This document shows, one piece after another, positions 11,790-53,977 of a stretch of 64,000 nucleotides of DNA. Source of the DNA: Chloranthus sessilifolius (Eukaryota; Streptophyta; Magnoliopsida; Chloranthales; Chloranthaceae). Both the position numbers and the translations under genes were made by a program. Position 1 is the stretch's first letter, and each line of letters starts with the position of its first letter. The notes below the pieces were generated by a model. The model was given only the letters and a program-made list of their open reading frames with translations, had not been told where the DNA came from and made no database searches. The DNA lies in assembly GCA_021018995.1 (NCBI GenBank), contig CM037587.1, positions 61,788,104 through 61,852,103 on the forward strand. Direction: 5' to 3'.

Positions 11790-12452
11790 GGCAATCCCCC
11801 TATTTGAGACCCCTACAAAATCCTAAATTAACTAAGTTGCCCCCCATTTATAAGGACCAAAGTCCACTGTGAAGATGCACGACCATATCTAGTTATGCCA
11901 CTTAAAATGAAAATTCATTTTTCTAGGACCCAATGAGAAGGGGCATTCCAATTTTATCATATGTTTTAGCAATGGTCTAGCTTCAACAAAAAATCATTCT
12001 ATTCTTTATTCACCTCTTGTCAAGTCTATTTTGTTTCCTCTTTCCAAAAAGGCCCACCTTTATTCAGTTGAAACTAATTATTTCACAAGCACTTTTAGCT
12101 AACAAGTCCTACGGTGAATCTTATATACACCACCAACAAGGCTAATTGAGCAAACTTCTATGTTTCCAATATTTCTGATTTTATGCATTTGGTGATAAGG
12201 GAGGAATTGAAAGATTCAATGCTTTACAATAGAAGAAAAATATCGCCATAAGCTTGATTAAATTCTCCTCAACAAGGTCCTATAACTTTAGAAAGCCATA
12301 GACACTACGTGAAAATGGCACATAAACCACACCTGCAAATAGATAAAGAACCACTGCCCAAGCAGTAGTATAATAATCCCTTGCCAAAATAGGTGGTTTA
12401 TTATAGTAAAATAGTGGTTAATTCCTTAACCCTCATCACGTGAGACTCTAAC
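11790..12452 (+). repeat. Segmental duplication, copy B (second part)
   Basis: Resumes the match to copy A (2573-3025) after the solo LTR. About 210 bp at 11887-12097 are absent from copy A. The CACTA-1 left terminus begins inside this segment at 12303. Confidence 0.85.
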
Positions 12453-12479
12453 TCTCCTCACATGCCAAAATTATCGAGA

Positions 12480-13150
12480 CCCTATTACAAACTCTTCTCT
12501 CATGCAAACAAAACCGCCTCTCCCTTATTCATCACTTTTCTTTCTCTCTCAAACCCTAGCCTCTCTCCTCTTCCTCTCTCTCACTCTCGACAAACCCTAG
12601 ATTTGACCCTTTTTCTGTTATTTTAAGCCCTATTTCAGCTCAGATCGAAGCTCTCAACTTTCCCTATTTCAGATCAGATCAAGCACTAGATTTCCAAAAT
12701 TTTGTTATATAAATCCTAGCTACGAAAATTTTGTTCTATAAATATGATCTCAGTGAGGTTCTGATCGGGAGCTCGACAAAAGATCTCCGTACATCGAAGT
12801 CAATCAAGTCTCAATTAGTTTTTCAAAAATCTAAACACGAAAATTTCTGCCTGATGAGCTTCTTCGGATCGATCTATTTGGCGTTTCAGACGGTACCTCT
12901 CTATAAAGGTTGAAACCTAAGGGCGTAATGGAGTTGCTTAGGGCTTGAGATCGTAATCGAGCGATTTCTCAGATCGAGTGTTTGAAATCCTCTGGCTTCA
13001 CAATAAAAATCAACATTGATTAACACATTTCTTGGGTTTTATTGATGAATTTTCTCTATCTAATAGTCAAAACATCTAGATTTTCTGAGAAAGGGTTTCT
13101 GTAGTAATTTGAACTACTAGTGTTTACCAATGGTTTAATCTTTGTTGTAG
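12480..13150 (+). promoter_or_regulatory. Promoter/5'-leader-like end of CACTA-1
   Basis: CT-rich sequence with two aaaccctag telo-box words (12551 and 12592), a familiar composition of plant 5' leaders of translation-related genes. It ends in a clear 3' splice site (ttgttgtag at 13141-13150) feeding the PGAP1 exon. It may be the captured PGAP1 leader or belong to the transposon end; similar leaders in CACTA-2 and CACTA-3 favour a functional role at this end. No clear TATA box was seen. Confidence 0.45.
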
Positions 13151-13456
13151 AAGTTGGATCTAACAACGCCAGGGTTTAGAGGGAAATGTAGAGTGGCCGC
13201 ACTGGTTATTTTTTCGGTATGGGGTGTTCTCGCAGCTCTCTATGGTTTGCTAATGGCAGTTCCGAATGATTGTACGATGACCTACATGTATCCAACCTAC
13301 ATTCCCATGTCGACTCCTACTAACATCTCTTCTGACGGTTATGGATTGTTCTTATACCATGAAGGATGGGAAAAGATCAATTTTGAAAAACATCTTAAGA
13401 AGCTCAGCAACGTTCCTGTTCTTTTTATTCCAGGCAATGGTGGTAGCTACAAGCAG
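13151..13456 (+). pseudogene. PGAP1: PGAP1-like GPI inositol-deacylase, N-terminal exon fragment
   Basis: The family removes the acyl chain from inositol of GPI anchors in the ER. The exon encodes the start of the plant protein: GFRGKCRVAALVIFSVWG, one hydrophobic membrane segment, TMYMYPTYIP-like region (read here as CTMTYMYPTYIP), LYHEGWEKI and the start of the lipase fold VPVLFIPGNGGSYKQ. It begins after an acceptor at 13150, so the initiator ATG would lie upstream; no ATG opens this frame inside the exon before the conserved region. It ends after codon CAG, where the intron would begin with GC (gcaaat), a GC-AG type donor. The catalytic serine exon and everything downstream are absent within CACTA-1, so this is a captured piece. 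Frame is open throughout. Confidence 0.8.
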
Positions 13457-15600: not shown

Positions 15601-15800
15601 GTATTTGAACAGGATTTGGCTGGGGTGAAGATGCCCAAATTGATCCTGAATGGATCGGACTCTTTGCTAATGGGGTTTCCACAGTTTGGGAGCTCCTATT
15701 ATTTGCTGATGCATCTTGATAAGGGTTTCAAGCCATTGTTTAAACTTCTAGAGACCTAGCTAGATCCATGTGGAAAAATCAATTCAGCTGGAGCGTCCAA
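15601..15800 (+). pseudogene. MED14: Mediator subunit 14 (MED14/SWP) internal exon fragment
   Basis: MED14 is the scaffold subunit of Mediator, the RNA polymerase II coactivator. After the acceptor ttttttgcag (15591-15600) the frame reads through DSLLMGFPQFGSSYYLLM and DKGFKPLFKLLET, a signature of plant MED14. The next codon is TAG where the family has glutamine, a CAG to TAG change, and coding-like sequence (LDPCGK) continues after it. Only this single exon is present, so it is a captured, mutated piece. The exon end is approximate. Confidence 0.75.
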
Positions 15801-15900: not shown

Positions 15901-16014
15901 TAACTTTCCATGAGTCTGCCAACATGCACAATTGTTCTAAATATTGGTCATAGTTTAAAAGAAAGACTTAGGCTGCGTATGGCATTGCTCTTTGGTAGCA
16001 CTTCAAAAATAGAG

Positions 16015-16260
16015 TCCTACGCCGACGGCTTGTAATATGCAAGCTGTCGGCGTATAAAAAGTGTATATAAGTCAACTTTTTTTCCCTAGTATCACTTCGC
16101 ACGAGCTCCCTTCTCCCAAACTCAACCCCTTCTCCCTTCGCTCAAACCCTAAATCCGTATTGCTCGAACCCCTCTCGCGCAAACCCTAAATCCCTATCGC
16201 TCAAACCCCTCTCACTCAAACTCTAAATCCCTCTCTCCTTTCCACTTCTCCACCAATGAG
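16015..16260 (+). promoter_or_regulatory. Promoter/5'-leader-like end of CACTA-3
   Basis: An inverted pair of the subterminal motif (ctacgccgacggc and gctgtcggcgta) is followed at once by TATA-like cgtataaaaag and gtatataag (16051-16070). Next come CT-rich sequence and imperfect ~35-bp repeats of ctcaaaccctaaatccctatcg with telo-box words at 16143, 16181 and, mutated, 16218. This is the layout of a plant core promoter and leader immediately inside a transposon terminus. Confidence 0.55.
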
Positions 16261-18036
16261 ATTAAGAAACCCTAGCTAGCTTTGTCGCCATTTGTCGCTT
16301 GTTTGAATGGTGGAAACCACCTCATGTGTATATAGCTTTCTATTTATTATATAAATCTTTCTACTACACATGCTTAGATGTACTTTAGTCCAATTAATGG
16401 CTGGAACAAGGCTTTCATTAATGAAAGTCCAAAGCGGTGTGACTGTTTAGGACTTTAGATTGGGAACTACTAAGTCATGTGAGTTAACCAGCATTAAGTG
16501 CCTGATGCGTGCATATAATGAATGCAACATTGGTGCATGCATGAGTTAAGGTGACATAATGTATTTTGGGACTTGGGAGATGAACAAATCCTACCTTAAA
16601 TTTCAGGTTCAGTGGGGGCCCATGTGTGCAATATATTCTTGAACAAGCTTATTCTACTTCTTCCCATTTTATGTAGATATATGTTAATCACCTTAATTTT
16701 GAACTTATAGAGATGCATTGAATAACTTTGGCCCTAGAATTTGTAGCTGTGAACGCAATCTTTGAATTTGTAATTGTAGACTGACCTCCATTCAAGCAGC
16801 TTTCAAAGTCAATAAAGTGATGTCCATTGATCAAATTGGAGAATAAGCAAATAGGAATAAACTGTTAAATTAATTGAATCATCCTTGGAAGAGATTTTAA
16901 CTATCATCTGAACAGTTTCGAATTATAATCAATTTGATTGAATTGGTGTCTAGTGGAACTGTAGATGACACTTAGCTTCCTTGCAAGTTTAAATATTTCG
17001 AGTAATTGCTGCTGCTGGTTCAATTTTAGCCCCCACTATGAAGTATTCAAAGCATGTCTCATTTGCATTAATGCATCGCTTACTCTCTAGGGATTTGTTT
17101 AATGGATTGAATGGACACATATTGCAAGAGAGATTAAACAAATTGGTTAAAAGTAAATGGCTAAATATAGCATGTGGTATTAGATGGGGGCATGTGTATG
17201 GGTAGATGTAACAGCGGATGAGAGCTGATGTATAGTGGATCTATCTAATGGTTGCAAAGTGTTAACAAGTTTAAACTATTTTTTGACAGGTATTCGATGA
17301 AGTGAGTACTGTATAAGTTGAATAGGTGGCTGGTATGTTGGGTAGCAAAGGTATGGGTAGGCAAGGGGCAATAGCAAGTATTCAATGAATAGGCATTCTG
17401 TAGTATTGGACGTGAACAGGAGTCAGCTGATAATGAAAGATGTAGATGTTAATTGGTAAATGAGTTAGTGGGCTGGTGGTCAAGCATATTGAATTTTTTC
17501 AATGAAGACATAGTAGATCTAGATTCCTTAATGCTCTGTGTTTTTCTAATCAGAATGCATAATCTATGCGTTTTTTCCAACCTAGTGTGTCTGCCCACAA
17601 TGGTGCTCATGCTACTTCCCTGAAGCAAACAAGCCCTTGTCGTAGCAGGGGCAGGGCAGAACAGGCTATGCACTGAGTTTCTTGTCAATAGGAGATTCCT
17701 TCTGCAGACACTGTAGGGGGCAATCCCAGTAGCATGACAACTACATTGGCTATGCTGCTTAAACCAACTAAAAAAGGAGCAGCCTCTGCAAGCTAACCTT
17801 AAATGCTGCAACAAAATGATACAGCTGCTGCTCAGCACAGCAGACACACCAGTAGAACCTGAAAATCTTGCAACAGTAAGAGCAGCCAAACCAGCTTGAT
17901 TGGGTGGCTATGTGCAGGATGCCGTATGCTCTCCATCGCCAGCATGAAGCCTGCAACATACCATAATTGATTTTTTTCCTGTATGTAATAAGCATTCATT
18001 TAACTAAGGATGCTTAGTTTGTCAGATTTGATTCCC
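16261..18036 (+). other. Unassigned interior of CACTA-3
   Basis: AT-rich sequence with no recognisable exon. A 146-codon frame on the minus strand (17449-17889) matches nothing I know and shows no domain, so I do not call it a gene. Probably intronic or other captured non-coding DNA. Confidence 0.4.
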
Positions 18037-18209
18037 TAAGAATCAAATTCGTAGTTCATAAGTTTGTGAAAGAGCTGAAAGAGGCTCTAGATGCCGATAT
18101 CAAAGGTAGGATCATGAAGGAGAGGTAGATGCAGAGCTACATCAAGGAGAGAGAAAGAGAAATGGCTGAAACAGAGGCCGCTTGGAATGCTTAGCTTTCT
18201 CGTCGGGAG
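18037..18209 (+). pseudogene. Charged coiled-coil exon fragment, gene not recognised
   Basis: The plus frame reads FVKELKEALDADIKGRIMK, then a stop (TAG), then a Glu/Arg-rich helix (YIKERERE, MAETEAAW), a second TAG and LSRRE before a donor-like gaggtataa at 18206-18214. The composition is that of a long charged alpha-helix or coiled coil. Both stops sit where GAG/AAG-type codons would keep the helix. It lies in sense orientation to the promoter-like end. I cannot name the parent gene. Confidence 0.5.
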
Positions 18210-18477
18210 GTATAAAACTAGATTTAGGATTTTTAGTTGTTTCATGATATGAGGGATATATTTGTTTTTTTGGTCGATTTTTGGAAATTTATGTCGAATT
18301 TATTTTTCATAAGCACCGAATTTTCTGTATGATATGTGCTTTTAGAACTAGCATAATTGTTGTTTTTGCTACTTCTTTTTGGTTACTTGTAATTAGTCGA
18401 AGCTGCAAAAAATTTAGAAGAAGTGTGTCTAGGTTATTCCATTTAAGAAAATACAAATTTTTATTTTACTATTATTG

Positions 18478-18480
<3 letters not shown>

Positions 18481-18530
<50 letters not shown>
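18481..18530. repeat. (TA)n microsatellite
   Basis: About 24 TA units inside CACTA-3. Confidence 0.9.
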
Positions 18531-18531
<1 letters not shown>

Positions 18532-18581
18532 CAATAATTTTTGCACTAAACTTCAGCATATCATCTCGAAGTACTACAAGC

Positions 18582-18650
18582 TAGCTTGATGAATTGGCGG
18601 CTGAGACTGCTGCTGCCATGGTTGCCAACCACCCAGATTACACCTCTCTA
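18582..18650 (+). pseudogene. RNR1: Ribonucleotide reductase large subunit exon fragment
   Basis: The enzyme reduces ribonucleoside diphosphates for DNA synthesis. The frame TAG-LDELAAETAAAMVANHPDY matches the conserved N-terminal region of the R1 subunit just before the family's IAVSNLHK block. The TAG replaces a residue before LDEL, plausibly glutamine. After TSL the similarity ends, so only ~70 bp of coding sequence was captured or remains. Short, so the call rests on a single motif. Confidence 0.6.
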
Positions 18651-20060
18651 CGAATGAAGTGCTATGACAAGGCATTACTTGGTTGCTATATATTTATTTG
18701 TAATAAATCTTTCTCATGCTATATATTTTTGTTGTAAATTGTAATAGTTTGTTTTATATATTTTATTAGAGGCTTTGATGATGAAATGACGGCAGTCGTT
18801 CCAAAAAATCTAGAAAGCAGGGGACGAGCTTGTTAGTGGTACATTTAGCCCTCCTATTTTCTTTGGGCTTTGCCAACCCTCAACTTGTTGCTAAACTGCT
18901 GCTGTTTATTAGTTGAGTAAAACAAAGACGACATAAGAGTTGTCACTGATCGTGGGGACGAATTGGTTGCATATGTTGTATTGTTTGCTACTGGTAATTT
19001 TCTTAGCACTTATTCGTAATGTATTCCAAGCTTCATAAATATTGAGATTATTATAATTACATGCACTTGTTTACATTTTGGTTGCATTTGTTATGCATAT
19101 AACCCAATAAATAGTCTCTGTTTGGTAAGACCCTCTGACAGTTTGTTTCTGGTCATGCCATTTATTGGTGTATAGAAAGAAATAGGGTCTTTCAATTGAA
19201 TGTTCATATGTACCTATGACAGTTTGTTTTCTTGTCATACCATTTGTTGGTTCGACTTACCGAATTGACAAACTCAATCATTTTTTTGAGTTGAATTGGT
19301 GAGTTGGCCGATTGACCCATGCTCCAAACTCGATCAACCAAAGAAAATCCAAGCACTGACATACCATAGATCAATCTGCCAAGACCTCATTAGGAAATAG
19401 AATATTGAAAAGCCCATTGAAAAAACCCACTGAAATCTCAAGACCATTGAAAAACATAAATCAAACGGAAATGCTCAAAATTTAGTCAGTTGTTCCCAGA
19501 TGCCAAAACTACCACTTCCTAGTTAACCTCCAACCCAAAAAATACTATTCCACTAACAAACAAAGACTGATAAAAAACACTTTGTTTAAACAAATTCCCA
19601 TCACATGTCACAGATCCCAAAAAAATCCCCTTGTGTACAATAGAACACATCACGCTCAAATGTAATTTTAGAGTCATATTTTTGGGATCTGGGACATGTG
19701 GAATAAAAAACTGGCCACCTGATGGGTGCGCCATGATCTCAAGATCCTATGTGAACAGTAAAAATAGCAGATATCTAAACTCATCTAGTATAAGAACAGT
19801 AAAAAAAAATGTCATTTTCCTTCATCGCAGACCAACATAAAGCACATCTGGATGGTATCATTAACTAATATTTTTAATTATTATTTGGTTAGTTACAGAT
19901 AGATTAGTCACTATTCTGATATATAATCAATCCATTTATTATGAATTTGGTTAGATTTAGGTAGATTAATGACTTGTTTTAATAGCTTAATTTCAAGTTA
20001 TATTAGTTCTTTAATTAAAATCTTTCTTTATCAATCCAAATCTTTCACTTTTTCTTGCAG
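18651..20060 (+). other. Unassigned interior of CACTA-3
   Basis: No exon recognised. An inverted repeat flanks 19605-19700 (acatgtcacagatcccaaaa against ttttgggatctgggacatgt), a probable small MITE. The final part is likely captured GH31 intron, ending in a clear 3' splice site. Confidence 0.45.
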
Positions 20061-20193
20061 ATCTGGGGGTGATTGGAGTACAACTTATGCGCCTTCACCA
20101 TTCTATATGACGTCAAAGATGAGATCTGTTTACCTTGGAGGCTGCAGCTACTCAGTTTTTGATCTAAGAAAACATGATAGAATATAGATTCAG
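20061..20193 (+). pseudogene. GH31 family glycosidase (plant YihQ-like) exon fragment
   Basis: GH31 enzymes hydrolyse alpha-glucosides or related sugars such as sulfoquinovosides. After the acceptor tttcttgcag (20051-20060) the frame reads GGDWSTTYAPSPFYMTSKM and YSVFDLRKHDRI, the region preceding the catalytic barrel in the plant homologues I recall. A TAG interrupts at 20185-20187 where the family has a glutamate, followed by IQ and the donor gtatca at 20194. A single exon with both splice borders but a nonsense codon: a captured, decayed piece. Confidence 0.6.
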
Positions 20194-20450
20194 GTATCAA
20201 TGTGGAAACTGGATTTTTTCTTCGGTTTCTTTTTTCACGGTTTATCAAAAAACTAATCTGATCTCTCTGTTCTAGCATCATGAAAAATGGTTCTCTTGGC
20301 AATTTTTAATTTACAATTAATTGTAAGATACAGGTTTCGCTTAGGGAGCACAAATTGATATAACTTAATATCGGTGTTTGGTATTAGTTGAAGCCCATTG
20401 TTGATAGCATGAAGCTCTTCTCCACATAAAAGTTTTAGAAAGAACCAAAC

Positions 20451-20620
20451 CCCCAACTAGTTGGGGTGTGAATGGGAGATGGAATTGAGCTGATAATGAG
20501 CCCCAACTTACTCAGCAAGTACCTTAAGATACCACCCCCAGCTAGTTGGGGTGTGAATGGGAGATGGAATTGCGCTGATAATGAGCACCAAACCCAAAGT
20601 CAACTCAGACCTGAACCCAA
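20451..20620 (+). repeat. 85-bp tandem duplication
   Basis: The block ctagttggggtgtgaatggg followed by agatggaattg occurs twice with an 85-bp period (ctag at 20457 and 20542), with minor changes. Confidence 0.8.
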
Positions 20621-20718
20621 ACCGAAACCCAAAAAAATTGGTCTTTTTCGATTCAGTTTCGGGTTTTTTATTTTTTATTTTTACTTTTTAGCTACATTTT
20701 CCTTTTTTTGAATTTTTT

Positions 20719-20829
20719 TCCGGTTTTCTCATCCTACCTAATCGGTTGTTTTTGCCACCCAAAACTGAAACCGAACCGAACCAGAATCGGTTTGGTTCGG
20801 TCCGAATCAAGTAGGATGAGAAAACCGGA
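20719..20829. mobile_element. Small foldback (possible MITE)
   Basis: ccggttttctcatcctac at 20719 is the reverse complement of gtaggatgagaaaaccgg ending at 20829; the interior contains aaccgaaccgaacc and its inverse. No target duplication assigned. Confidence 0.6.
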
Positions 20830-21141
20830 AAAAATAAAAGCCACTTGTCTAACTAGAAATATATAAATAGTTGTTATAAATATACGCCGCTTGTCTATAA
20901 AGCAACTATGTAGACTGCATGTTGGTAGATAAGCCGCCAAAGGTAATTTGATTCCATTGCGGCTATGAACTGCATGCTGGTTTCTAAGATAGACTATACA
21001 GAAATTTGTTTATATATCAACTATATGGACTGACCGCTGGTCTACAGATTGCATTGAGATATATGAATTAATTTTTCATTAATGCACTGTTAAGAGTTTA
21101 CTTCAATTTTTCTCTAACTGTGATATGATTTGATTTTGCAG

Positions 21142-21422
21142 GCCCCTTAAAGAGGCAGAATAGCACCAATACCTGCAAAGAAGAAATCGGTAATTTTATT
21201 TTATTTATTTTCTATATTTTGATCTGTAATGTTTTTATAGAGTGAAACTAATTTTCCTAAGTAGAATGTCTATATATATATATATATTATTTATTTATTT
21301 TTGTATGTAATATGTTTTGGATTTTAGGAGAAGGTTGTGAATCCGTTGTTAGAGAAGCGTCCAAAGCAGTTTGGAATTGGAGGGACTTTGCATCCAAAGA
21401 GGGATTTGCATCGGTTTGTGAG
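21142..21422 (+). pseudogene. RPL7A: 60S ribosomal protein eL8 (L7a), first two coding exon fragments
   Basis: Exon 21142-21189 reads AP-stop-RGRIAPIPAKKKS after an acceptor tttgcag and before donor gtaatt. Exon 21328-21422 reads [18 protein letters not shown] and PKRDLHRFV between acceptor ttttag and donor gtaggg. Both match the basic N-terminus of the large-subunit protein eL8, with the family intron in place. A TAA replaces lysine in the first piece. The initiator methionine and the remainder are missing, so it is a captured fragment. Its position just inside the right end of CACTA-3 makes it the last gene piece of that element. Confidence 0.85.
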
Positions 21423-21544
21423 GTAGGGCAACCAATGGCTGGGATGGAACTTGCAACCTCTAGATAGGTAGGGTAACCGATGGCTGGGATGGAACCTGTG
21501 ACCGCTAGGTAGATAGGGCAATGGGAATTTTTTTTTTTTTAAAA

Positions 21545-21730
21545 GGCCTATGCCGATGGCTGGAGTTGTAGGCATCGGCATAGGGGTGATTTATAATACC
21601 TATGCCAACGGCTACAACCATCGGCATAAGCCCATTTATTTTTAAAAAAATAAAAAAACACACACATACTGCTGTTTTAGTCTACACGGATCGCTGGCAG
21701 CCGTCGGCGTAGGTGCCTTTATTTGTAGTG
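21545..21730. repeat. Subterminal repeats at CACTA-3 right end
   Basis: Variants of tatgccgatggc / gccatcggcata in both orientations, and gccgtcggcgtagg close to the terminus, resemble clustered transposase-accessory binding sites of CACTA elements. Confidence 0.7.
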
Positions 21731-22406: not shown

Positions 22407-22495
22407 GCAGTTGTTGAGAAAGGAATTGTTGTTGGTGGGGATTGTACTCTATTAAGACTAGCAGCACAGGTCGACACCATCAAGGACACTCTTGA
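22407..22495 (+). pseudogene. CPN60B: Chloroplast chaperonin 60 beta exon fragment, 5' side of CACTA-2 insertion
   Basis: Cpn60-beta is the chloroplast GroEL-type folding chaperone. After the acceptor (22401-22406) the frame reads [18 protein letters not shown] and VDTIKDTLD, the conserved GGGCTLLRLA region of plant Cpn60-beta with a Gly to Asp change. The exon is cut after cttga by CACTA-2 and resumes at 51874. Read across, the codons continue in frame, which fixes the insertion point. Confidence 0.85.
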
Positions 22496-22990
22496 CACTA
22501 CGTGAAAAAGCCAAAAAAATCACTGCCTTAAACAGTGATTTTTTCAAAAAACCACGGTCTTTGACAGTGGTTTTTTTATGCAAATTAAAAAAAAAAAAAA
22601 ATTACGTCGACAATTTTTTATGCAAATTTTTTTAAAATAATATTTTTTTTATGCTTTTTTTTAATACAATTTTTTATGCCTTTTGTAAAACTTTTTTTTA
22701 ATGTAATTTTTTAATGTTTTTTTTTAGTACTTTAAAAAAAATTATATAAAGAAAAAAAGCTATTAATCTCATATTTAAACACATCTATTCAACCCAAATG
22801 CAAATCATTCAATGCCACTAATAAATAAAATAGATGCCCAATTCTTTTATTCAAACAAAATATTGCATCTCAACCTACGATCCAACCTTTCAAATCAATC
22901 AAATATTTTAAACTTTACATGCTCAATCCTTTTATTCAAACAAAAAAATGAAAAAGAAAGAGAGTTAACAATCTAAGGACCCCATGACCT
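22496..22990 (+). repeat. Shared distal (AAAAAGCC-type) end of CACTA-2
   Basis: Inverted copy of 53460-53974. Shared blocks include the terminus, the actgccttaaacagtg subterminal hairpin words, a long T/A-rich tract with ttttttatgc repeats, and a unique stretch (ttattcaaacaaaatattgc ... catctcaac). Confidence 0.8.
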
Positions 22991-23659
22991 AGTTTCATAA
23001 TTAAAAAAAAAAAAAAAAGTGTTTCGCCTCTCCTGCCAAGTATCTCCGTCCCCTAGTACTGATCCGTTTGAGGTGAGCTTCAAATCGAAAAGCTTCGCCT
23101 GAAATCAAAAGGAGAACGTAATTAAATATTTATGATATTAAGCAATTAAATTGAGATATTGATGACTTCTCACTACAAAAAAAAGGACCTACGCCGACTG
23201 CTGTGATTAGGAGGAACAAAGCCTTCATGATTAGGTGGTCTGAAATGAATAAGATTTTAAGGAGAGTTTCAGTTGAGAAAATCACAGTTTGCTGGTACAA
23301 TATTCATGTGTTAAGTCCTTAGTTCTGATGTTGGTATCCACCTATCTAGCCTATTTGCTGTCAGGAGGTATTTCTGGGCTACCATTTTTGTACTGCTCTT
23401 GTGTGTCAACTTACTATTTATTTTTCTGACAATTGGGTCAGTTGGTAGGTCTGCTAACCTGCTTAGGCCTTATCTATTATGTACTTATCTCCTTTCGATT
23501 AATAAATTTTAATTTATCAATTAGTAATAATAATACTAATACATAATAATAAAAAAAACCTATACGAATTGCCAAATTGTAATCATTTAAACCCCTGTAA
23601 AATCAAAGCAAGGCGACATCTTGCGCAGGGAAAAAAAGTTAAGCAAGTAAGAAACATAC
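22991..23659. other. CACTA-2 interior without recognised gene
   Basis: AT-rich sequence. It includes a lone CACTA-3-type terminus at 23171 (separate entry) and runs into the ARL8 pieces. No exon identified. Confidence 0.45.
23171..23200 (+). mobile_element. Orphan CACTA-3-type terminus
   Basis: cactacaaaa followed by aaaaggacctacgccgact resembles the CACTA-3 right terminus (CACTACAAATAAAGG then cctacgccgac). No matching opposite end was found nearby, so it is either a truncated third element or an end moved with other captured DNA. Confidence 0.6.
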
Positions 23660-24158
23660 ACAATGGCAGAGACTGCACGACAATAACGCTCCCACATGCT
23701 CCGAAATCTGGGTTGAGACCTCCAAGATCCCACAACTTTATTGTAACATTTCCTTTAGTTACCTTACGCATATTGAATCCAACCTGTAGAACACATTACA
23801 TGCAAAAGCAATGCATCTTACCATTAAACATCATAATAGCTTGCAATCCTAACATTTCACAGAAAGATATAAGACTTTCTGCAACTAGGATGCCATCTGA
23901 TTTACGGGTATACAATAAGACTAAATCTGCATTCCTTTGGCATGACAAGATTACTCACAGTGGGAATCATGTCTTCACTATATCCACCAGTCTACAAAGG
24001 AGATCCAAAAACCAGTGTCATAGCATGTTTCATAAAGAATATAGCTGCTAATTTGAAGATATAATGATTTTTTACTTACTGCAACGACATTTACAAGTGA
24101 AGTTTTTCTGGCATTCTGAAGCCCTATCAAAGAGAGCTCCATTTCTTATTTGAAGAGG
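23660..24158 (-). pseudogene. ARL8: ARL8 small GTPase, three exon fragments
   Basis: ARL8 is an Arf-like GTPase of the endolysosomal/vacuolar system. On the minus strand exon 24080-24158 reads SLFK-stop-EMELSLIGLQNARKTSLVN, exon 23959-23991 reads TGGYSEDMIPT, and exon 23660-23783 starts [20 protein letters not shown] with a one-base shift after GG that restores a frame with [17 protein letters not shown]. All three have canonical donors (gtaagt, gtgagt, gtatgt on the minus strand) and acceptors. Defects: CAA to TAA before EMELS, Gly to Arg in the P-loop (NARKT for NAGKT), and the frameshift. Later exons are absent. Introns are retained, so this was captured as genomic DNA. Confidence 0.88.
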
Positions 24159-26230: not shown

Positions 26231-26283
<53 letters not shown>

Positions 26284-41680: not shown

Positions 41681-44453
41681 TGTGACGACCCGACTTTTTC
41701 AATCCCTCAGGTATAGGAAAGGCCGGTTCGCCAACCTATCAAATAAACGATAAGCCGGACAAACAGAGCACATATCAGAGTAAAGCGTAATAAATATCCA
41801 TAGTTAAAATAATTGCGGAAGCAATTAAAAGTAAAGAACCACCGATGATGGCCGACCATCATCGAAACATGGCTCATAACAGAAATCAACGTCAAATATA
41901 AAACTATGGTATCCAACTAAAATGGGCCCACAAATTCAAGTCTAACTCTCACCACAAATAAGAAAATCAAGAAGTTCTATCGAAAACTCCTCAGAGGAAC
42001 CTCAAGCTCTTCCTCGAGCACGTAGTCGATCGGCCTCACATACGAATAGCCACGTCAATCGAACACATGACGATAGTCGAGTGAGCTAACCAACAAAGCT
42101 CGATGAGAAGAAAGACATCTACGGCATTTTACTTTAACTAATATGGTTTCAAAACAAATATCGGAATATAGCTTGTCAAACATATAAGCAGATAATAAAC
42201 TGAATTTAGGTGCAGAAATCATATGTAAGATTTATTTCTAAATGTGTGAAAACAGTTTCAAGAATAGATGCAGTATTTCAGTGTCTTAGTTTCTCTAACT
42301 TCTATATGCAAAGTTCAGTAATTCATGACTTAATCCTCAACTTAAAATACCTCCCGAGTAAACTATATCTCGAGAGCAGGAATATAGCCGATGGGAACCC
42401 CTACCTACCATCGTCGTTCATGAACTCTTTTTCAGGATGCAACAAGCCCCTACGTAATGAGGGAAACTTGTGCCAGGAAATTGTTCAGGAATTTTTGAGG
42501 GGTCGTTCAGATCAATCATAAAACAAATGCAGATACTAATATAAATCAGATGCAAGTCTCTTATACATAGTTCAGGGTCTTGATTTCAGATTTTCAGAGC
42601 TTAAGCAGATTCAGGTTTCAGGATTCAGGTAGATTTAGATTTTCAGTCATTCATATCAATTTCAGTTTATAGATGTGATTTCAATGGCATATGCAAGTTT
42701 AAAGATTTTAATTCAAAATATCCATGCGAATTAAAATAAAATACTGTAAAGATGAGATTCTCCTACCTAAAACTCGGAGTTATGCGAAGTCAAGCAAGGT
42801 CCTATTGATGGCCTCTCGCCCTCAATCAACATCACAATATACGTTCATGCATTAAGATAAACTCTAATTACTAATAATATAGACCTATTTAAGCATTTCC
42901 TCAAAAACAAGTCAAAACAGGCAAGTTGCGCCAATCCTAGAATTTGACATAACATTCTCATATATTTTTGACTATCAAGATGATTGATCCATGAGTTGGT
43001 CAAAACATAAAAGTTGTAGATTTTTCTATTAGCTTTCCAACGCAAAAAGAATAGTCTCAATCGGAATTCGGGACAAAACGGTATGACTAAAATAAAATAC
43101 TGTAAAGATGAGATTCTCCTACCTAAAACTCGGAGTTATGCGAAGTCAAGCAAGGTCCTATTGATGGCCTCTCGCCCTCAATCTACATCATAATATATGT
43201 TCATGCATTAAGATAAACTCTAATTACTAATAATATAGACCTATTTAAGCGTTTCCTCAAAAACAAGTCAAAACAGGCAAGTTGTGCCAATCCTAGAATT
43301 TGACGTAACATTCTCATATATTTTTGACTATCAAGACAATTGATCCATGAGTTGGTCAAAACATATAAGTTGTATATTTGCCTATTAGCTTTCTAACGCA
43401 AAACGAATCGTCTCAATCGGAGTTTGGGACAAAAAGTTATGACTAAAATACCAAGGCAATGTTGAAGTTCGACAATACCTCGCTCGAGCGATGATAATAG
43501 CTCGCTCGAGCGATTTGACATAACATTATCATATATTTTTGACCATCAAGACGATTGATCCATGAGTTGGTCAAAACATAAAAGTTGTAGATTTTTCTAT
43601 TAGCTTTCTAACGCAAAATGAATCGTCTCAATCGGAGTTCGGGATAAAACGTTATGACTAAAATACTATAGAAATGTCGGAGTTCGGTGATACCTCGCTC
43701 GAGCAATGCTAATAGCTCGTTCGAGCGAGCTACAGCGACGCGATTTCACTGGTTTTCACCCGAATCGAAACCCATACATCCCAAAGCAAAACCCATGGCT
43801 AATATAATGATTTAATCAAAAAGTTTAATTAAAACGTACCTTTAATCTAAGGATTCCTAGATTAGAAATGAGTCACGCGAATGCAGCTTCGGAACGAAAC
43901 CGACGGGTTTCCTCAACGATTTGCGCCGCGATCAATCCCACGAGTTCACAGAGACAACTCCAACACGCCCCCAATGATCTCAACCTCTCCCAATAGCCAA
44001 CTACGAATCCAAGGTTGATTCAAGTTCTTTCTAAGGTTTAAGTGCTTTCAACAAAGAGGGTTCTAGAGAAGGAGGTTTTCTAAACCGATCTCCTACGATG
44101 ATTGAAGAAGAGAGAAGGAGTTTCACACGGTTGGATAACTATCCTCTCTTAACAAAACCTAGTATAATACGGGAATGCAATTCCTTCTTATAATAGGATT
44201 TCTCACAAAGTAAAACACACACACACATCTTATTTATTATACACTTCTAATTTTAAAACTCAAGTCCGGTGTTGAGCGGCTACACCGAGGTCAGTGCACA
44301 ACTTTCGCACGAGGGTCCAAATGGACTCTAAATTAAAATCTGTCCGCACAATCACATCTAGATAAAAATCCAAAACAAATGGTGACGTCGGTTGCCGAGC
44401 CGAATACACACACAGGGTCAGTCTAACTCGGGTTCAAAATACGGGTCTTTACA
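41681..44453 (-). repeat. Gypsy LTR, array unit 2
   Basis: 2773 bp with the same termini and the same 356-bp internal duplication as unit 1; palindromes at 43481-43516 and 43694-43732. Confidence 0.9.
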
Positions 44454-45113
44454 TTCTACCCTCCTTCGGAATTTTCGTCCTCGAAAATGTACGGATAGCT
44501 AAACCGAACTGCGGTAAGTCCTTATTCTAACACCAATATAAAGCAAAATCAAAATAATCTAAAGTCGAAGAACTTTGGTCGCGATGCGGTAGGCTTCACT
44601 AAGCACGCTTTCAAGGGTCGGGATCCGTAGTAACCTGGATGTATTGCGTGTGGCATCCCATACTACCATAGAGGATTACATCCGTACATGGATGCATACC
44701 TTCCCAAGTGTCACGTGCCTGGAAATATACTTCACCATGACACAAACCTAGCACACACACCTACCTCACCCTTTTGGTAATTATTTGAGCAGAAATTTCA
44801 GATGTCAGAATCGAACACTTATTCAAAAGCATGATCACGTGCCTGGTAACATGTTCAAACTGATGACACGGGTTCCAACAGACATACGGTTCTAACCGAG
44901 AATGAATAAATATGACATTTAAGATTTTATTGTGTGATCGTTATAGATATATATGTAAAGCACCGATGTTATGAACCAATTTAACATTGAAGATTTTGAA
45001 GAAATTCTCCCCTTTTTTTTTTTTTTTTTTTTTTAAAGAAGCAAATTCAAGAATTTAAAGGTACGTATGGTTTTCTTACATAACTATAGTTTATAATATA
45101 CCTTCACTCGAAA

Positions 45114-48100
45114 AGTTGTGAAAATTGTTCGCGAATCTCCGCTTCACGCTCCCATGTGGCTTCCTCTGAAGAATGGTTCCGCCACTTCACGAGTACTAAG
45201 GGAATGCTCTTTATCCGTAAGATTTGTTCTTTACGATCCAAGATTCGTATCGGTTCCTCAACCAAGGATAGGTCTTCTTAGAGCTCAATGGGCTGGTAGT
45301 CCAATACGTGAGTCGGGTCCTTAACATATCTTCGTAACATGGACACATGAAACACATTGTGCATTTTCGATAGCTGCGGTGGCAAGGCTACTCGATAGGC
45401 AACCTCGTCGACTCGCCCAATACCTCGAAGGTCCAACATAGCGCGGACTCGCTTCCCACGCTTCCCAAAATGCATCACGCCTTTTGTAGGAGAGATTTTG
45501 ACAAATCGTTATCTCCCACCTTAAACTCAACATGGTTTCTTTTCGATCAACTAGCTCTTTCCGACTTTGAGCAATGCGTAGTCTCTCACGGATTAACCGA
45601 ATCGTCTCGGTTGTATTCTCCACGATCTCGAGACCTAAAATGAGTTTCTCACCCACTTCTTCCCAATTAAGCGAGACCGCACTGTCGTCCATACAAAGCT
45701 TCAGAGGGTGCCATGCCGATATAGCCTGTAGCCGTTATTATAGGTGAACTCGATCGGGTAAATGTTGGTCCCATGACCCTGAAAATCCAACATGCAAGCA
45801 CGTAACATATCTTCTATAATGATTCACCTCTCGTCACGCCCATCGGTCCGAGGATGGAATGTCGACTATAATCGAGCCTAGAGCCCATTCCTTCTAAAAA
45901 TCGTTGCCAAATCGAGATGTGTACATCGGGTCTCTCTATACGGATCGATCTTGGTATACCATGCTAACTGCCTCCTTGATGTATAATTCTGCGAGCTTGT
46001 TGGTGGTATACGACGTATTATAAGGAAGGAAGTGTGCGGACTTAGTTAATCGATCCACAATGACCGAGATGGCATTGTATTTTCTTAATGTTCTTGGCAA
46101 TCCCAAAATAAAGTCCATAGAAATGGCCTCCCATTTCCACTCAGGTATCGGTAGTGGTTGCAACAGTCCTGCCGAATTTCGATGATCCACCTTTACTTGC
46201 TGACACACAAGACATCTCGAGACATACACAGCAACATCTTTCTTTAAACCTCTCCACCAGAAGCTTTTCTTTAAGTCCTGGTACATCTTGGTACTGCCAG
46301 GGTGAATAACGTACATAGACTTATGAGCCTCGTCCAAAATAGTGTCCCGAAGCTCAATACTAGTTGGTACGCATACCCGGTTTCTAAACAACAAAGTGTC
46401 ATCATCTTTGATAGAAAAATCTATTTTGCTTCCCCCAATCACATCGTCGATAGCCATAAGTTCATCATCAAATCATGAAGTCTGCGAATGTTCTCATAGA
46501 GGTGAGCGAATCACCAGTGTAGCCATTAGCGCACCTGAACCTTTTACGTCAAATCTCATGCTACTTAGAGCCATATCTTCCAATAGATGCCATCTTCGCA
46601 CCCTTGCGGTGAGATGTGATAACTGAGCAGAGAACTTCCGACTTAACGCATCTGCCACTACGTTTGCTTTCCCGGGGTGGTACTGGATGGTACAATTATA
46701 ATCTTTCAAGAACTCCATCCATCGACGCTGTCTCATATTCAACTCCTTTTGTAAGAAGAGATACTTGAGGCTCTTATGATCGGTAAATATATCGAAGGTC
46801 TCCCCATAAAGGTAACGCCTCCAGATCTTCAGAGCAAAAATCACTGCTGCCAACTCAAGATCATGCGTCGGGTAATCCTTCCCATGGTCTTTTAGCTGTC
46901 TAGACCCATAAGCAATGACTCTCTCATTCTGGTTAAGCACACAGCCTAAACCCCCATATGATGCATCACTGTATCTTTAAAGCCTCCCACGCGATGGTAT
47001 AGCAAATCTTGGCGCAATAGTCAATCGTTTCTTGAGTTCACGAAAACTTTGCTCACTGCTTCTGTCGATCAAATTTAGTATTCTTCTTCGTAAGTTGTGT
47101 AAGAGGACCTGATATCTTGGAGAAGCCTTCCACAAACCTTCTGTAGTATCCTGCCAAACCGAGGAAACTACGAACCTCCGTAATGGTCTTTGGCTGTTCC
47201 CAATTCATCACTGACTCAATCTTTGCTGGGTCAACTGTAATACCGGTCTCAGAGATAACATGGCTTAAGAAACTGACCTGCTGAAGCCAAAACTCACACT
47301 TACTAAGTTTTGCGTATAACTGATGGTCTCTAAGGGTTTGTAGAGCCACTCGCAGATGTTGCTCATGTTCTTCTCGCGTCTTTGAATAGATGAGGATGTC
47401 ATCTACAAAAACTACTACAGACTTGTCCAAATGTGACTTGAATATCCGGTTCATCAAGTCCATAAATGACGCGGATGCGTTTGTCAACCCAAATGGCATG
47501 ACCAAGGACTCGTTGTGCCCATATATCGGGTTCTGAAGCGCTTGAATGTCTTCGAGACTTAACTTTCAAGCGATGGTAGCGACCTCAAGTCGATCTTGAG
47601 AAGAACCTTGCTCCTTATGGCGATCGAGCAGATCATCAATTCTTGGAAGTGGATAACGGTTCTTAATTGTCAACTTATTTAGCTGGCGGTAATCGATGCA
47701 AAGCCGCATTGAACCGTCTTTCTTCTTTACAAATAGAACTGGTGCTCCCCAGGGTGACACACTCGGTCTGCTCCTTCAACTCTTTCAATTCTGCAGGCCC
47801 CATTCGATACGGAGTTTTTGATACTGGTTCAGTACCCGGCACAAACTGAAACGCAAACTCAGTCTCCCTGCCAGGTGGTAATCCAGATAGATCTCCAGGA
47901 AGAACATCTGGATACTCGCAAGCAATCGTAATATCTGTAATATTTTCTTCTCCTCATGATCTTGCAAGCGGGCGGATAACCACAACACCCGTTCCTCATC
48001 ATAATGCCTCGCTCAAATGGCGAGATAAGCGGTATCACACAAGATTTGACTCATAAAATCGAAAAGATTTTCTCTTCGTCGGAATGTTACAATCTTTCGA

Positions 48101-48238
48101 AGACAATCCACGCTCGCATGGTAAGTAGATAACCAATCCATCCCTAGTATCACGTCGAACCCTTCCATGCTCAAAATGATCAAATCAGCCACTGTCTCAT
48201 GGTCTTCGATCATCACAATCACTGATTGACACATGGTA
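45114..48238 (-). pseudogene. Gypsy pol, unit 2 (fragmented)
   Basis: The same domains as unit 1 in the same order: protease tail (48013-48234), RT (47053-47760), RNase H (46494-46940, with intact [16 protein letters not shown]), integrase zinc finger and core start (45936-46457), then broken C-terminal pieces (45278-45692) and the chromodomain region. It is split into more frames than unit 1, but breaks fall in different places in the two units. Confidence 0.85.
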
Positions 48239-48472
48239 TCATTACAGAATTAAAAGATAATACTTAGATTAATTAGAATTTAGATTACATAATCAAATTG
48301 AAAGTTAATACTAGTATGTTTTACTGATTTAGCAAAAAAAATTTGTGAAAAAAAATCCTAAATAAATCAACAAAAAAATTAATAAATATAATAGTCGTGT
48401 TTTTTTATCAAGCCAAAACCTCGCCTGGCCCTAGCAGAGCCAGGTTAAGGTTTGGCCAGTTTAGACCTTGCA

Positions 48473-50892
48473 TGTGACGACCCGACTTTTTCAATCCCTC
48501 AGGTATAGGAAAGGCCGGTTCGCCAACCTATCAAATAAACGATAAGCCGGACAAACAGAGCACATATCAGAGTAAAGCGTAATAAATATCCATAGTTAAA
48601 ATAATTGCGGAAGCAATTAAAAGTAAAGAACCACCGATGATGGCCGACCATCATCGAAACATGGCTCATAACAGAAATCAACGTCAAATATAAAACTATG
48701 GTATCCAACTAAAATGGGCCCACAAATTCAAGTCTAACTCTCACCACAAATAAGAAAATCAGTAAGTTCTATACTGGGAAAAACTCCTCAGGAGGAACCT
48801 CAAGCTCTTCCTCAGGCACGTAGTCAGGATCAGTCTCACAGCCCTGAATAGCCACGTCGATTACTGAACACATGACGTATAGTGAGTGAGCTAACCAACA
48901 AAGCTCGATGAAGAAAGACATCTAAGGCATTTTACTTTAACTGATATGGTTTCAAAACAGATATCGGAATATAGCATGTCAAACATATAAGCAGATAATA
49001 GACTGAATTTAGGTGCAGAAATCATATGTAAGATTTATTTCTAAATGTGTGAAAACAGTTTCAAGAACAGATGCAGTGTTGCAGTGTCTTAGTTTCTCTA
49101 ACTTCTATATGCAAAGTTCATGACTTAATCCTCAACTTAAAATACCTCCGAGTAAACTATATCTCGAGAAGCGAGGAATATAGCCGATGGGAACCCCTAC
49201 CTACTATAAATCGCTCATGAACCCTTTTTCAGGATGCAACAAGCCCCTCGTAATGAGGGAAACTTGTGCCGAAATTGTTCAGAATTTTGAGGGTCGTTCG
49301 GTCAATCATAAAACAAATGCAGATACTAATATAAATCAGATGCAAGTCTCTTATACATAGTTCAGGTTCTTGATTTCAGATTTTTAGAGCTTAAGCAGAT
49401 TCAGGTTTCAGGATTCAGGTAGATTTAGATTTTCAGTCATTCATATCAATTTCAGTTTACAGATGTGATTTCAATGGCATATGCAAGTTTAAAGATTTTA
49501 ATTCAAAATATCCATGCGAATTAAAATAAAATACTGTAAAGATGAGATTCTCCTACCTAAAACTCGGAGTTATGCGAAGTCAAGCAAGGTCCTATTGATG
49601 GCCTCTCGCCCTCAATCAACATCACAATATACGTTCATGCATTAAGATAAACTCTAATTACTAATAATATAGACCTATTTAAGCGTTTCCTCAAAAACAA
49701 GTCAATACAGGCAAGTTGCGCCAATACTAGAATTTGACGTAATATTCTCATATATATTTGACTATCAAGACGATTGATCCATGAGTTGGTCAAAACATAA
49801 AAGTTGTAGATTTTGCTATTAGCTTTCCAACGCAAAAAGAATCGTCTCAATCGGAGTTTGGGACAAAAAGTTATGACTAAAATACCAAGGCAATGTCGAA
49901 GTTCGACAGTACCTCGCTCGAGCGATGATAATAGCTCGCTCGAGCGATTTGACGTAACATTCTCATATATGTTTGACCATCAAGACAATTGATCTATGAG
50001 TTAGTCAAAACATAAAAGTTGTAGATTTTTCTATCAGCTTTCCAACGCAAAAAGAATCGTCTCAATCGGAGTTCAGGATAAAAAGTTATGACTAAAATAC
50101 TAAGGCAATGTCGGAGTTCGGTGATACGTCGCTCGAGCGATGATAATAGCTCGTTCGAGCGAGCTACAGCGACGCGATTTCGCTGGTTTTCACCCGAATC
50201 GAAACCCATACATCCCAAAGCAAAACCTATGGCTAATCTAATGATTTAATCAAAAAGTTTAATTAAAACGTACCTTTAATCTAAAGATTCCTAGATTAGA
50301 AATGAGTCACGCGAATGGAGCTTCGGAACGAAACCGACGGGTTTCCTCAACGATTCGCGCCACGATCGATCCCACGAGTTCACAGAGACAACTCCAACAC
50401 GCCCCCAATGATCTCAACCTCTCCCAATAGCCAACTACGAATCCAAGGTTGATTCAAGTTCTTTCTAAGGTTTAAGTGCTTTCAACAAAGAGGGTTCTAG
50501 AGAAGGAGGTTTTCTAAACCGATCTCCCACGATGATTGAAGAAGAGAGAAGAAGGAGTTTCACACGGTTGGGTAACTATCCTCTCTTAACAAAACCTAGT
50601 ATAATACGGGAATGCAATTCCTTCTTATAATAGGATTGCTCACAAAGTAAAACACACACACACACATCTTATGTATTATACACTTCTAATTTTAAAACTC
50701 AAGTCCGGTGTTGAGCGGCTACACCGAGGTCGGTGCACAACTTTCGCACGAGGGTCCAAATGGGCTCTAAATTAAAATCTGTCCGCACAATCACATCTAG
50801 ATAAAAATCCAAAACAAATGGTGACGTCGGTTGCCGAGCCGAATACACACACAGGGTTAGTCTAACTCGGGTTCAAAATACGGGTCTTTACA
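48473..50892 (-). repeat. Gypsy LTR, array unit 3 (solo)
   Basis: 2420 bp, with the 356-bp block only once in full (from about 49531), plus partial copies. Palindromes at 49911-49948 and 50127-50163. It is followed by host DNA, not by polypurine tract and pol, so it is a solo LTR or the original 5' LTR. Confidence 0.88.
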
Positions 50893-51873
50893 TTGTAGCA
50901 TTTGGGCCAGGCTAGGGCTCAGCCTTTGGCCTCTAGGGCTGGGCTCTAATAGACCGATCTGAAATACAGAGATATAAAATTACATAGATGAGATCATATT
51001 GATCAGGCGGGGGAGATCAGATAAGGTATGGTGATCATATTGATCAGGCGGTGGATATCAGAGCTTGGATTTTATAAAAAAAAAATTACATAGATGAGAT
51101 CATCAGAGCGAGAAAGATCAGATCTGAGATTTGAAACATACAGATTCGGGCCTCAACTAGTTAGATTCGATGTCTTCATCACCTTTCGAATCTACCAAGT
51201 CCTTTTTCAAGTTGATGTTTCTTCCAATGCATGCGATGGCAAAATGTGGTCGAATTGGTTCAGAGAAAACCTTATCGACCGCCTCTACAACAGAAACCTG
51301 GAAAATGAGATGCGAAATCGAGATGGATGAGAAGAGAAAGAGAAAGGATCTGGAATAGCTTCGATTTCAATCCTCCAATCCACAAATGCTTATAAAAAAC
51401 CAAAAAATTAGAAAGAAAAGGTGAAGACGCATACACAGATTCGATCCTCCAATGCTCTGTAGATTCCAAACTTGATCGAACCCTAACCACAAATTCGACG
51501 CTCCATAGCTGTTCAAACCCTAATGGTTTCGACGAGAGAGGATCATTGGCTCTTCAAACCCTAACCACGGGATTTCATTAGAGAGAAGAGAGAGGGAGAT
51601 GGAGGCTAGGGTTTCGAAGAGGGAGAGAGAGTGAGAGAGGGGAGGAGGTGAAGAGGTGGAGGCTGTTTTGTTAGAGAAATATGGCACGAAAAATAAATAA
51701 ATAATAAAGGGCTTTCTTCTGGGTCGGCCCGATAACTTTCGCATGAGATTTGAACGGGACAGTGGTTTAACTTTAAATACTACCGTTTGAGGGAGTGGAA
51801 TATTAGACCACTATTTTAAGCAGTGGTCTGTTTTATTCTGACAGAGTGGTTGTTTCTCCATTTTGACGTAGTG
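50893..51873 (-). promoter_or_regulatory. Promoter/5'-leader-like end of CACTA-2
   Basis: Reading on the minus strand from the terminus at 51873: subterminal CCACT words and a hairpin (accactgcttaaaatagtggt), then CT-rich sequence with gaaaccctagcc (51605-51616) and further agggttt words to about 51480. This mirrors the left end of CACTA-1. The inner border is the gypsy insertion. No splice site or coding exon was identified. Confidence 0.45.
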
Positions 51874-52091
51874 TGATACCGAGGAACAAAAGGTGAGATT
51901 GTGTTACAAATCGTAATTGTGTTGCAGTTTATGGCCTTGATTTATCTATTTTTGCATGATTTGTGATCTGCGGGTCTTCTTGTCGTTAATGGTTGACAGG
52001 TTGGAGCAGACATCGTTAAAAGAGCTTTGAGCTATCCATTGAAGCTGATTGCTAAAAATGCTAGTGTCAATGGCGTGTTGTCACCAAGAAG
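51874..52091 (+). pseudogene. CPN60B: Chloroplast chaperonin 60 beta exon fragments, 3' side of CACTA-2
   Basis: After the repeated tga, the exon resumes with TEEQK and ends at 51892 before donor gtgaga. The next exon, 52000-52091 after acceptor ttgacag, reads [20 protein letters not shown] then ASVNG, a signature of plant Cpn60-beta, and degenerates at its end (VLSPR for the family's SVVSEK-like sequence) before donor gtatgt. Together with 22407-22495 this is one captured gene piece with introns. Confidence 0.88.
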
Positions 52092-53143
52092 GTATGTGTG
52101 CATGTCTAATCGATCTCACTAAGGGCTTTGGTCTAGTCATGGTTAGGATATAAGTTTTACCCACCAATCTTTGATATTTTCTGAAATCATTGAGTGGCTC
52201 ACCTTCTTCAATACTAATCCTATAGTTCTGATCCATAGGTGTATTAATGGGATCAAGTGGCCCCTTAAGTGATACACATGATAGCTGGATGCAAGGTGAA
52301 CTTGTTGATCTTTTATTGGGTCGAAATCTGTTTGTCTATTTGTTGTTATAAGTGATATCTTAAAGCGTCTTAAGAAGTATGGGGGCGGCGGGGATTAGAG
52401 TTAATATTTTTTACATCTCGAGTCCAAGAAATAGGGGACTCTCGGTGATATGTGAGGAGGCTGCAAAATTTTTATTTCCTTTTCTTTTATTTAGAGAAAT
52501 TATAAGCTAAGATAGAAGTTTGCTTATATTGTGAAACTGCATGAGAATTAATAGAATGAGTTCTTTTATGAGAAAGAATAATGCGAGGTCAAGAAAGGGT
52601 CCAGGAGCCTGTTTTTCTGTGCTTGAACCTTCCTATATTTCTTCCATGTGTCTTATTAGGCTAAGATGGCTGCTGATTTTCTATGGTCTAATCAGACTTG
52701 CTGTTGCTTGCTACTCAATCCTAAATTCTGTGGGCAAATCCTTATTGTTATCCATACTACATATATGCTGCTTATGGGTGTGTTAATCATTAGTTTTCTA
52801 TTTGAATATCCATCTATATAGCAGTTTTAGTACATATTTCCTGACAGGATTATAGTTGTAATGGCTATGGTTGTGACTGCAGAAATTGGAGTCCGGTGCT
52901 GGTTTTCATTGGTGCTGGACAACTCTCTTTAGGACTGTTATTATTGATCTAACACAGAGGTATTGGAGAACTTTTTTATTGTATTTTGATACAGTAACAG
53001 TAATTATACAAAGGTTTGTTTTCGTACTTTATTTTTATTTTTCCTCCGAGTTTTTTCCAGAACTGGCCGGAATTTTCTGAATTTTAACTTTACTGAATTG
53101 TCGAACCCCGACTTGGTGATTAGCAGGCCATTTTTTGCTTCAG
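52092..53143 (+). other. Non-coding interval between Cpn60-beta and DRP1 pieces
   Basis: No exon recognised; the frames at 52541 and 52886 match nothing I know. Ends in a polypyrimidine tract and cag, the acceptor of the DRP1 exon. Confidence 0.45.
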
Positions 53144-53272
53144 GGTAAGCAACTTGGGCAATTTTTGGATGAGGATCCCGCGTTGATGGAATGCAGACAA
53201 CAAGCTGCTAAGAGGTTGGAATTGTATAAATCAACAAGGGATGAAATTGATTCAATATCGTGGACCAAATAA
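53144..53272 (+). pseudogene. DRP1: DRP1-type dynamin-related protein, last coding exon
   Basis: DRP1 dynamins act in clathrin-coated vesicle scission and cell-plate formation. The 43-codon exon after acceptor ttgcttcag reads GKQLGQFLDEDPALMECRQQ then AAKRLELYKSTRDEIDSISW and a natural stop, matching the end of the GTPase effector domain of plant DRP1. It is unbroken and followed by what looks like 3' UTR. Everything upstream, including the GTPase domain, is missing. It is the last gene piece before the CACTA-1 distal end, so could supply a terminal exon and polyadenylation signal. Confidence 0.85.
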
Positions 53273-53459
53273 AACTGAAGCAGATTGTCGGGCCCTTTCT
53301 ATGGTGATGCTACAAATGACTTGATCCTCAGTTGTTGGGAGTGATCTGTAGTAAATTGATTTATGGGAACCTCGAAAATACGGGATCCATAGGCCGAGCA
53401 AGGGGAGGCGAAGCAAATTTTTTTTTTATTTTTTATTTTGTTTTAATTTTGAAAATGGG

Positions 53460-53974
53460 CCATTGGGTCTTTAGATTGTTAACTCTTTTTCTTTTCTTCT
53501 TTTTGTTTGAATAAAAAGATTGAGCATGTAGAGTTTAAAATGTTTGACTAATTTGAAAGGTTAGATCATAAGTTGAGATGCAATCTTTTGCTTGAATAAA
53601 AGAATTGGACATCTATTTTTTTATTATTAATGACATTAAATGATTTGCATGAGTTGAATGGATATGTTGAAATATGAGATTACTAGCTTTTTTTCTTTAT
53701 ATAATTTTTTTTAAAACATTAAAAAAATTACATTGAAAAAATTGCATAAAAAAAATTGCATAAAAAAAATTGCATTAAAAAAAAGAATTATAAAAAGCAT
53801 TAAAAAAATTGCATAAAAAATTGTCAACGTAATTTTATTTATTTTTTTAAATTAGTATTTTTTTTTTTGAAAATTTGTATAAAAAAATCACTGCCAAAAG
53901 CAGTGGTTTTTTCTATGATTGTTGAGAGCAGTTGTTGTTTAAGGCAGTGATTTTTTTGGCTTTTTCATGTAGTG
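53460..53974 (-). repeat. Shared distal (AAAAAGCC-type) end of CACTA-1
   Basis: Inverted copy of 22496-22990: terminus, cagtggtttttt hairpin words, A-rich tract with ttgcataaaaaa repeats, and unique sequence containing gcatgagttgaatgg. Establishes CACTA-1 and CACTA-2 as one family. Confidence 0.8.
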
Positions 53975-53977
53975 AGA

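Follow-up and report, generated by a model that had tools for sequence, protein, structure and literature searches.

Gene pieces in nested CACTA elements of Chloranthus sessilifolius lie in sense to a promoter-like end, a bias that is likely, though partial, in the family

The window, by which we mean the whole analysed stretch of 64,000 nucleotides of Chloranthus sessilifolius, contains three nested CACTA elements carrying pieces of host genes (Table 1). By pattern search and scripted read-out of the flanks, the ends and 3-bp TSDs were exact in all three; the CACTA TIRs and the 3-bp TSD are those of the CACTA superfamily, the left end of CACTA-3 reading CACTTC. The insertion of CACTA-2 splits the Cpn60 piece of CACTA-1, parts of which lie on both of its flanks. 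By reading, several CACTGC and CAGTGG words were found subterminally at the ends of CACTA-1 and CACTA-2, and GCCGACGGC-type words in CACTA-3; enrichment was computed for the CACTA-3 word only, giving 7 matches against 0.2 expected. The terminal 32-mer of the CACTA-2 tail occurs at 1518 places in the genome at up to 3 mismatches, and its reversed control at none.

Table 1. Elements, their ends and the gene pieces in the window. Orientation is given relative to the leader end of the element.
Feature	Position	Strand	Orientation	Remarks
CACTA-1, gene-fragment-bearing CACTA	12303..53974	+		TSD AGA at 12300-12302 and 53975-53977
CACTA-1 leader end	12303..12620	+		subterminal CACTGC-type words, CT-rich tract, two AAACCCTA boxes
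PGAP1 first-exon piece	13169..13456	+	sense	Pfam PF07819, E 7e-6
MED14-like piece	15601..15756	+	sense	in-frame stop after
Cpn60-beta piece, exon 1	22407..22493	+	sense
Cpn60-beta piece, exon 2	52000..52080	+	sense
Dynamin-related GED piece (DRP1 of the original prediction)	53144..53263	+	sense	Pfam PF02212, E 3e-5
CACTA-1 tail end	53700..53974	+
CACTA-3, separate TIR family (CCTACGCCGACGGCT)	15999..21730	+		TSD TAG; inside CACTA-1
CACTA-3 leader end	15999..16280	+		TATATAAG at 16064, CT-rich leader, three AAACCCTA boxes
Coiled-coil piece, CACTA-3	18063..18125	+	sense	by eye only
RNR1 piece, CACTA-3	18585..18671	+	sense	weak match, E 0.034
GH31-like piece, CACTA-3	20062..20184	+	sense	reading frame
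eL8 piece, CACTA-3	21328..21420	+	sense	E 2e-12
CACTA-2, inverted	22496..51873	-		TSD TGA; inserted in the Cpn60 piece of CACTA-1
CACTA-2 tail end	22496..22760	-
ARL8 piece, CACTA-2	23653..24115	-	sense	three exon blocks in order with introns
SHPRH/RAD5-like piece, CACTA-2	24743..24835	-	sense	E 2e-4; contains stops
Enolase piece, two exons, CACTA-2	25646..25876	-	sense	Pfam Enolase_C, PDB match
Nucleotidylyltransferase-like piece, CACTA-2	27153..27263	-	sense	reading frame
PPR/E-motif piece, CACTA-2	30983..31762	-	sense	260 aa open; Pfam
CACTA-2 leader end	51500..51873	-		CT-rich on minus strand, three telo-boxes

Much of CACTA-2 is occupied by a long-repeat array with a spacing of about 6.8 kb (34650-50900), an inverted relative of which lies outside CACTA-1 (54350-63690); the units look like those of LTR retroelements. 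Also within CACTA-2, on the minus strand, are what we take by eye to be LINE-like remnants (32850-34100). Inverted arms around CACTA-3, noticed by eye (15971-15998 and 22089-22116), look as if CACTA-3 sat in a further inverted-repeat element within CACTA-1. The window further contains a duplication with about 94-95% identity (335-3025 against 6084-12452), with other DNA between the copies (3026-6083) and within the second copy (8315-11785). To the duplicated part belong the first ca. 150 nt of the leader of CACTA-1 (2875-3025), suggesting that the duplication postdates the insertion of CACTA-1.

A reading frame was present on the predicted strand for all 12 pieces named in the original prediction, and search backed the identity of eight of them (one weakly), or of nine out of 13 when the enolase piece, absent from that list, is included. 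The names MED14, GH31, nucleotidylyltransferase and coiled-coil were assigned by eye, and these four we treat as presumptive. The MED14-like piece had no match in PDB or Pfam; it matches (69%) a 354-aa open frame elsewhere in the genome, a candidate parent. Neither the nucleotidylyltransferase-like ORF nor the SHPRH/RAD5-like ORF taken alone had a Pfam match. When the parts flanking CACTA-2 were joined, the Cpn60-beta piece matched plastid chaperonin 60B1 (E 2.6e-18), and the ARL8 piece reached E 6e-29 with its exons joined, the last block being read in two frames. The ORF behind the Enolase_C match was assigned by eye to 25574-25738. No convincing match was found for the ORF 52877-53077 or the piece 51130-51280, both of which were searched.

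Several pieces are decayed: stops are present in the MED14 and SHPRH pieces and in the stretch before RNR1, and the ARL8 piece has a frame break. This window copy is therefore unlikely to play a role at the protein level. The PGAP1 piece has ACG at the codon where the related copies L003 and L045 have ATG (methionine), a position that may correspond to the start codon of the parent. Since ARL8 and enolase retain their exon order with introns, the captured material was genomic DNA. The Pfam scan of the window covered 150 of the 196 sense ORFs (at least 36 aa) and 150 of the 209 antisense ORFs (at least 38 aa), and no transposase was among the matches. The elements, being non-autonomous and carrying host gene DNA, are thus Pack-CACTA elements, a known kind.

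All 13 recognised pieces are in sense to the leader end of their element (chance P = 1.2e-4), as are the nine supported by search when these are counted separately (P = 0.002). The original prediction had reported 12 out of 12 and so slightly understated the pattern, as the enolase piece agrees with it. The antisense ORFs of the window scan, used as a control, gave five weak and implausible Pfam matches (best E 0.003) and no convincing host gene.

The leader ends had been described as having CT-rich sequence and telo-box words, and this held: eight of the nine telo-box 8-mers (AAACCCTA or TAGGGTTT) of the 64-kb window lie within the three 400-nt leaders, the test being post hoc. The CACTA-2 leader, where one of the three telo-boxes is in sense and two are reversed, is related to that of CACTA-1; the CACTA-3 leader has in common with these two only the CT-rich sequence and the telo-box words. 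Altogether 826 candidate relatives of the CACTA-1 leader were found in the genome, of which 40 were scored, and 29 of the 41 main genomic matches are alike over the first ca. 280-298 nt only. A sense telo-box was present within the first 400 nt of all 26 complete sampled leaders and a reversed one in none, the copies being homologous rather than independent; pooled, the 400-nt stretches upstream of the same leaders contained one telo-box.

The promoter-like look of the leader end was likewise corroborated, in the window by the TATATAAG motif of CACTA-3, and elsewhere by a CACTA-3-type end (L058, at C10:123.636 Mb) that combines a CACTA terminus, TATATAAG, a CT-rich leader and three telo-boxes. 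A Transposase_21 domain lies about 5.8 kb downstream of this end on the same strand, a minor part of the intervening DNA having been read. The genome search for this domain gave 1763 candidate places, of which 150 were scored; by eye from the lists, one transposase domain lies in sense 11.5 kb inside a tail end (C10:90.97 Mb), and as a counter-case one lies near a tail but outside the element (C9:60.83 Mb). Because a transposase domain lies in sense downstream of the promoter-like leader of L058, the leader end probably corresponds to the end with the transposase promoter. A putative promoter role of the leader is well motivated.

Orientation in other family members was scored on the leader side from 15 stretches of 10 kb taken from leader matches and from 25 shorter loci (L002-L026), and on the tail side from 12 stretches of 3.6 kb drawn from at least 100 exact tails. 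After deduplication the long set comprised 288 sense and 272 antisense ORFs and the short set 215 and 207; Pfam was run on 150 ORFs of each of these four groups, and the shorter ORFs outside the scan were, for the long set, 138 sense and 122 antisense (in part read by eye) and, for the short set, 65 and 57. The sense tally of the long set was drawn from 25 of 32 Pfam families. Distinct host-like genes with E 1e-3 or better were counted. Before the count we set aside domains of retroelements, found on either strand (reverse transcriptase, gag, integrase and others), PGAP1 in relatives, whose capture is the one already represented in the window, and Pox_LP_H2 (E 7e-4, sense), along with DUFs and further implausible matches. 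Myb_DNA-bind_3 (E 1e-17, sense, placed by eye in L031) was also dropped as a possible transposon gene; with it, the sample would be 11 out of 15 in sense.

Ten of the 14 Pfam-supported captured genes in relatives were in sense (one-sided P 0.09): H+-PPase, a thioredoxin-like PDI, an ABC transporter, two WD40 proteins, FBPase, TRA1, a kinase, an FAD oxidoreductase and HSP70. The remaining four, GH17, methionine synthase, SMAX1 and MGDG synthase, were antisense. The search named the ORF directly for methionine synthase, SMAX1, WD40, kinase and ABC; for PDI, FBPase, TRA1, H+-PPase, HSP70, FAD oxidoreductase and MGDG the ORF behind the match was judged by eye, and the ABC match and one WD40 match fall under Pfam's own cut-off. 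By eye we further named what are presumably VCS, oxoglutarate dehydrogenase E2, pfkB, RAB, CSN4 and BRR2, all in sense, and an apparent NAD carrier in antisense; VCS, oxoglutarate dehydrogenase E2 and BRR2 had no fitting Pfam match. With these added, 16 of 21 genes were in sense (one-sided P 0.013); by itself, this independent sample is not decisive with either figure. Between the sample and the window there was no clear difference (Fisher P 0.13), and the supported pieces of the two pooled were in sense in 19 of 23 cases (P 0.0013). In ORF length the two strands of the 15 loci were alike (at least 100 aa: 35 sense, 34 antisense). As 14 of the 15 ten-kb samples stop before reaching the tail, some of the sampled pieces may be outside the element or in nested ones.

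The prediction that capture or retention favours sense pieces was therefore upheld in part: sense outnumbers antisense in relatives as well, but not exclusively, and a sense-only rule for the family is ruled out by the four antisense genes. The sense bias is plain in the window and likely in the family, where it is partial. Inverted nested elements were considered as a source of antisense pieces; a search of the 15 ten-kb loci at set thresholds, covering leader and tail ends in inverted orientation as well as the CACTA-3 motif, found none of these in L032, L040 or L042. Second leader-type CACTA ends, with 7 or 8 mismatches in 28, were seen inside the longer elements L032 (3477), L036 (6143, oriented) and L042 (4733). 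All three share the orientation of the outer leader, and two of them have a CT-rich tract and telo-boxes.

Seven elements (L018, L032, L034, L036, L039, L043 and L044) carry the GH17 piece in antisense, some 325 nt inside the leader, and of these L034 has both ends present (ca. 8 kb, TSD TGA, first base A instead of C). Antisense cargo thus does not stop transposition. Also the cargo of the window has been multiplied: including the window, the PGAP1 piece is present at 13 genomic places, MED14 at nine and the enolase piece at 16 (at least 200 nt). One of the enolase matches (C8:103205237-103205532) lies 8.7 kb from a tail at C8:103196477, in sense to it. PGAP1 and MED14 occur in the same order and direction at five places including the window, though at one place 50 kb separate the two. 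The distance from MED14 to a CACTA-3-type leader behind it is 243 nt in the window, against 247 nt at C4:73.80 Mb and 261 nt at C10:42.81 Mb, and CACTA-3 therefore probably travels within CACTA-1.

In the parts of the published accounts consulted, several systems resemble these elements. Tgm-Express1, a soybean CACTA element with five gene fragments, likewise holds several unrelated intron-containing pieces, which are spliced as exons into chimeric transcripts; these start at the host F3H promoter, while in the window elements the putative start is at the transposon's own end (PMC1947982). Pack-CACTA and other Pack-TYPE elements are TIR elements that are non-autonomous and carry DNA of host genes, frequently drawn from several loci (PMC8903248, PMC13317346), and capture via tandem insertion has been described for them (PMC8903248). 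The Tpn1 family of Ipomoea nil is of CACTA type, with internal host sequences, chimeric transcripts and 3-bp TSDs (PMC5105172). Chimeric transcripts from CACTA-borne gene pieces are accordingly already known from soybean and morning glory. The parts consulted do not report the orientation of the pieces relative to a promoter-like end in Pack-TYPE elements (PMC8903248, PMC13317346), nor relative to the 5' end in Tpn1 (PMC5105172). In Chenopodium CACTA elements captured pieces are placed in the 5' region, and the idea of camouflage has been raised (PMC8978399). Also maize Helitrons join exons of unrelated genes in one transposon and splice them (PMC4528327, PMC3288121). Unlike the window elements, Helitrons are rolling-circle transposons without TIRs or TSDs. 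An orientation bias of gene pieces has been reported in maize Helitrons. A model of capture between two tandem insertions was reportedly put forward by Catoni in 2019. In the consulted parts of the literature searched, mostly non-subscription papers, no count of capture orientation in CACTA elements was met.

The reading that we favour, and consider rather probable, is that of gene-fragment-bearing (Pack-type) CACTA elements whose leader is the ancestral 5' end, whose cargo has been multiplied and whose sense excess arose through a leaky filter. The leader end would formerly have carried the transposase promoter, intron-containing host genomic DNA would have been captured behind it, and the elements would later have multiplied together with this cargo. 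When the element end is transcribed, a filter may favour sense pieces, which would bring fewer double-stranded RNAs and cryptic polyadenylation signals and more splicing into gene-like RNA; the antisense exceptions in relatives suggest that it leaks. Alternatively, the excess could arise if insertions were filtered by their orientation before capture. It seems somewhat doubtful that the telo-box and CT-rich leader would act as a ready-made promoter and first exon, an exon trap in which sense exons are favoured through mRNA-like RNAs escaping silencing.

If capture orientation were random, the 13 sense pieces would be due to the small numbers of one window. The antisense pieces in relatives, one of them, GH17, multiplied, agree with this, as does a Pfam-supported sense share outside the window that is not clearly unlike one half; the low chance probabilities of the window and an independent sample leaning the same way argue against it, and we judge chance unlikely. 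Selection might also act before capture, if CACTA insertions in or near genes survive better with the leader along the gene and capture by tandem insertion then yields sense pieces without selection on transcripts. The inner leader-type ends of L032, L036 and L042, all along the outer leader, are consistent with such a course, and same-orientation local insertions are reported for Pack-TYPE elements in the consulted parts of PMC8903248. However, ordinary nesting of insertions could also explain the inner leaders, inner tails were not observed in these loci, and CACTA-2 is itself a nested insertion in inverted orientation; this explanation, too, appears improbable.

For the leaky filter that we favour, the family of 1518 tail ends is big enough for a test of orientation, and the present sample shows that any filter leaks. 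If the bias holds genome-wide, transcription starting at the element's own end would act as a filter on gene capture, and such filtering, if true, would tie exon shuffling to the escape from silencing.
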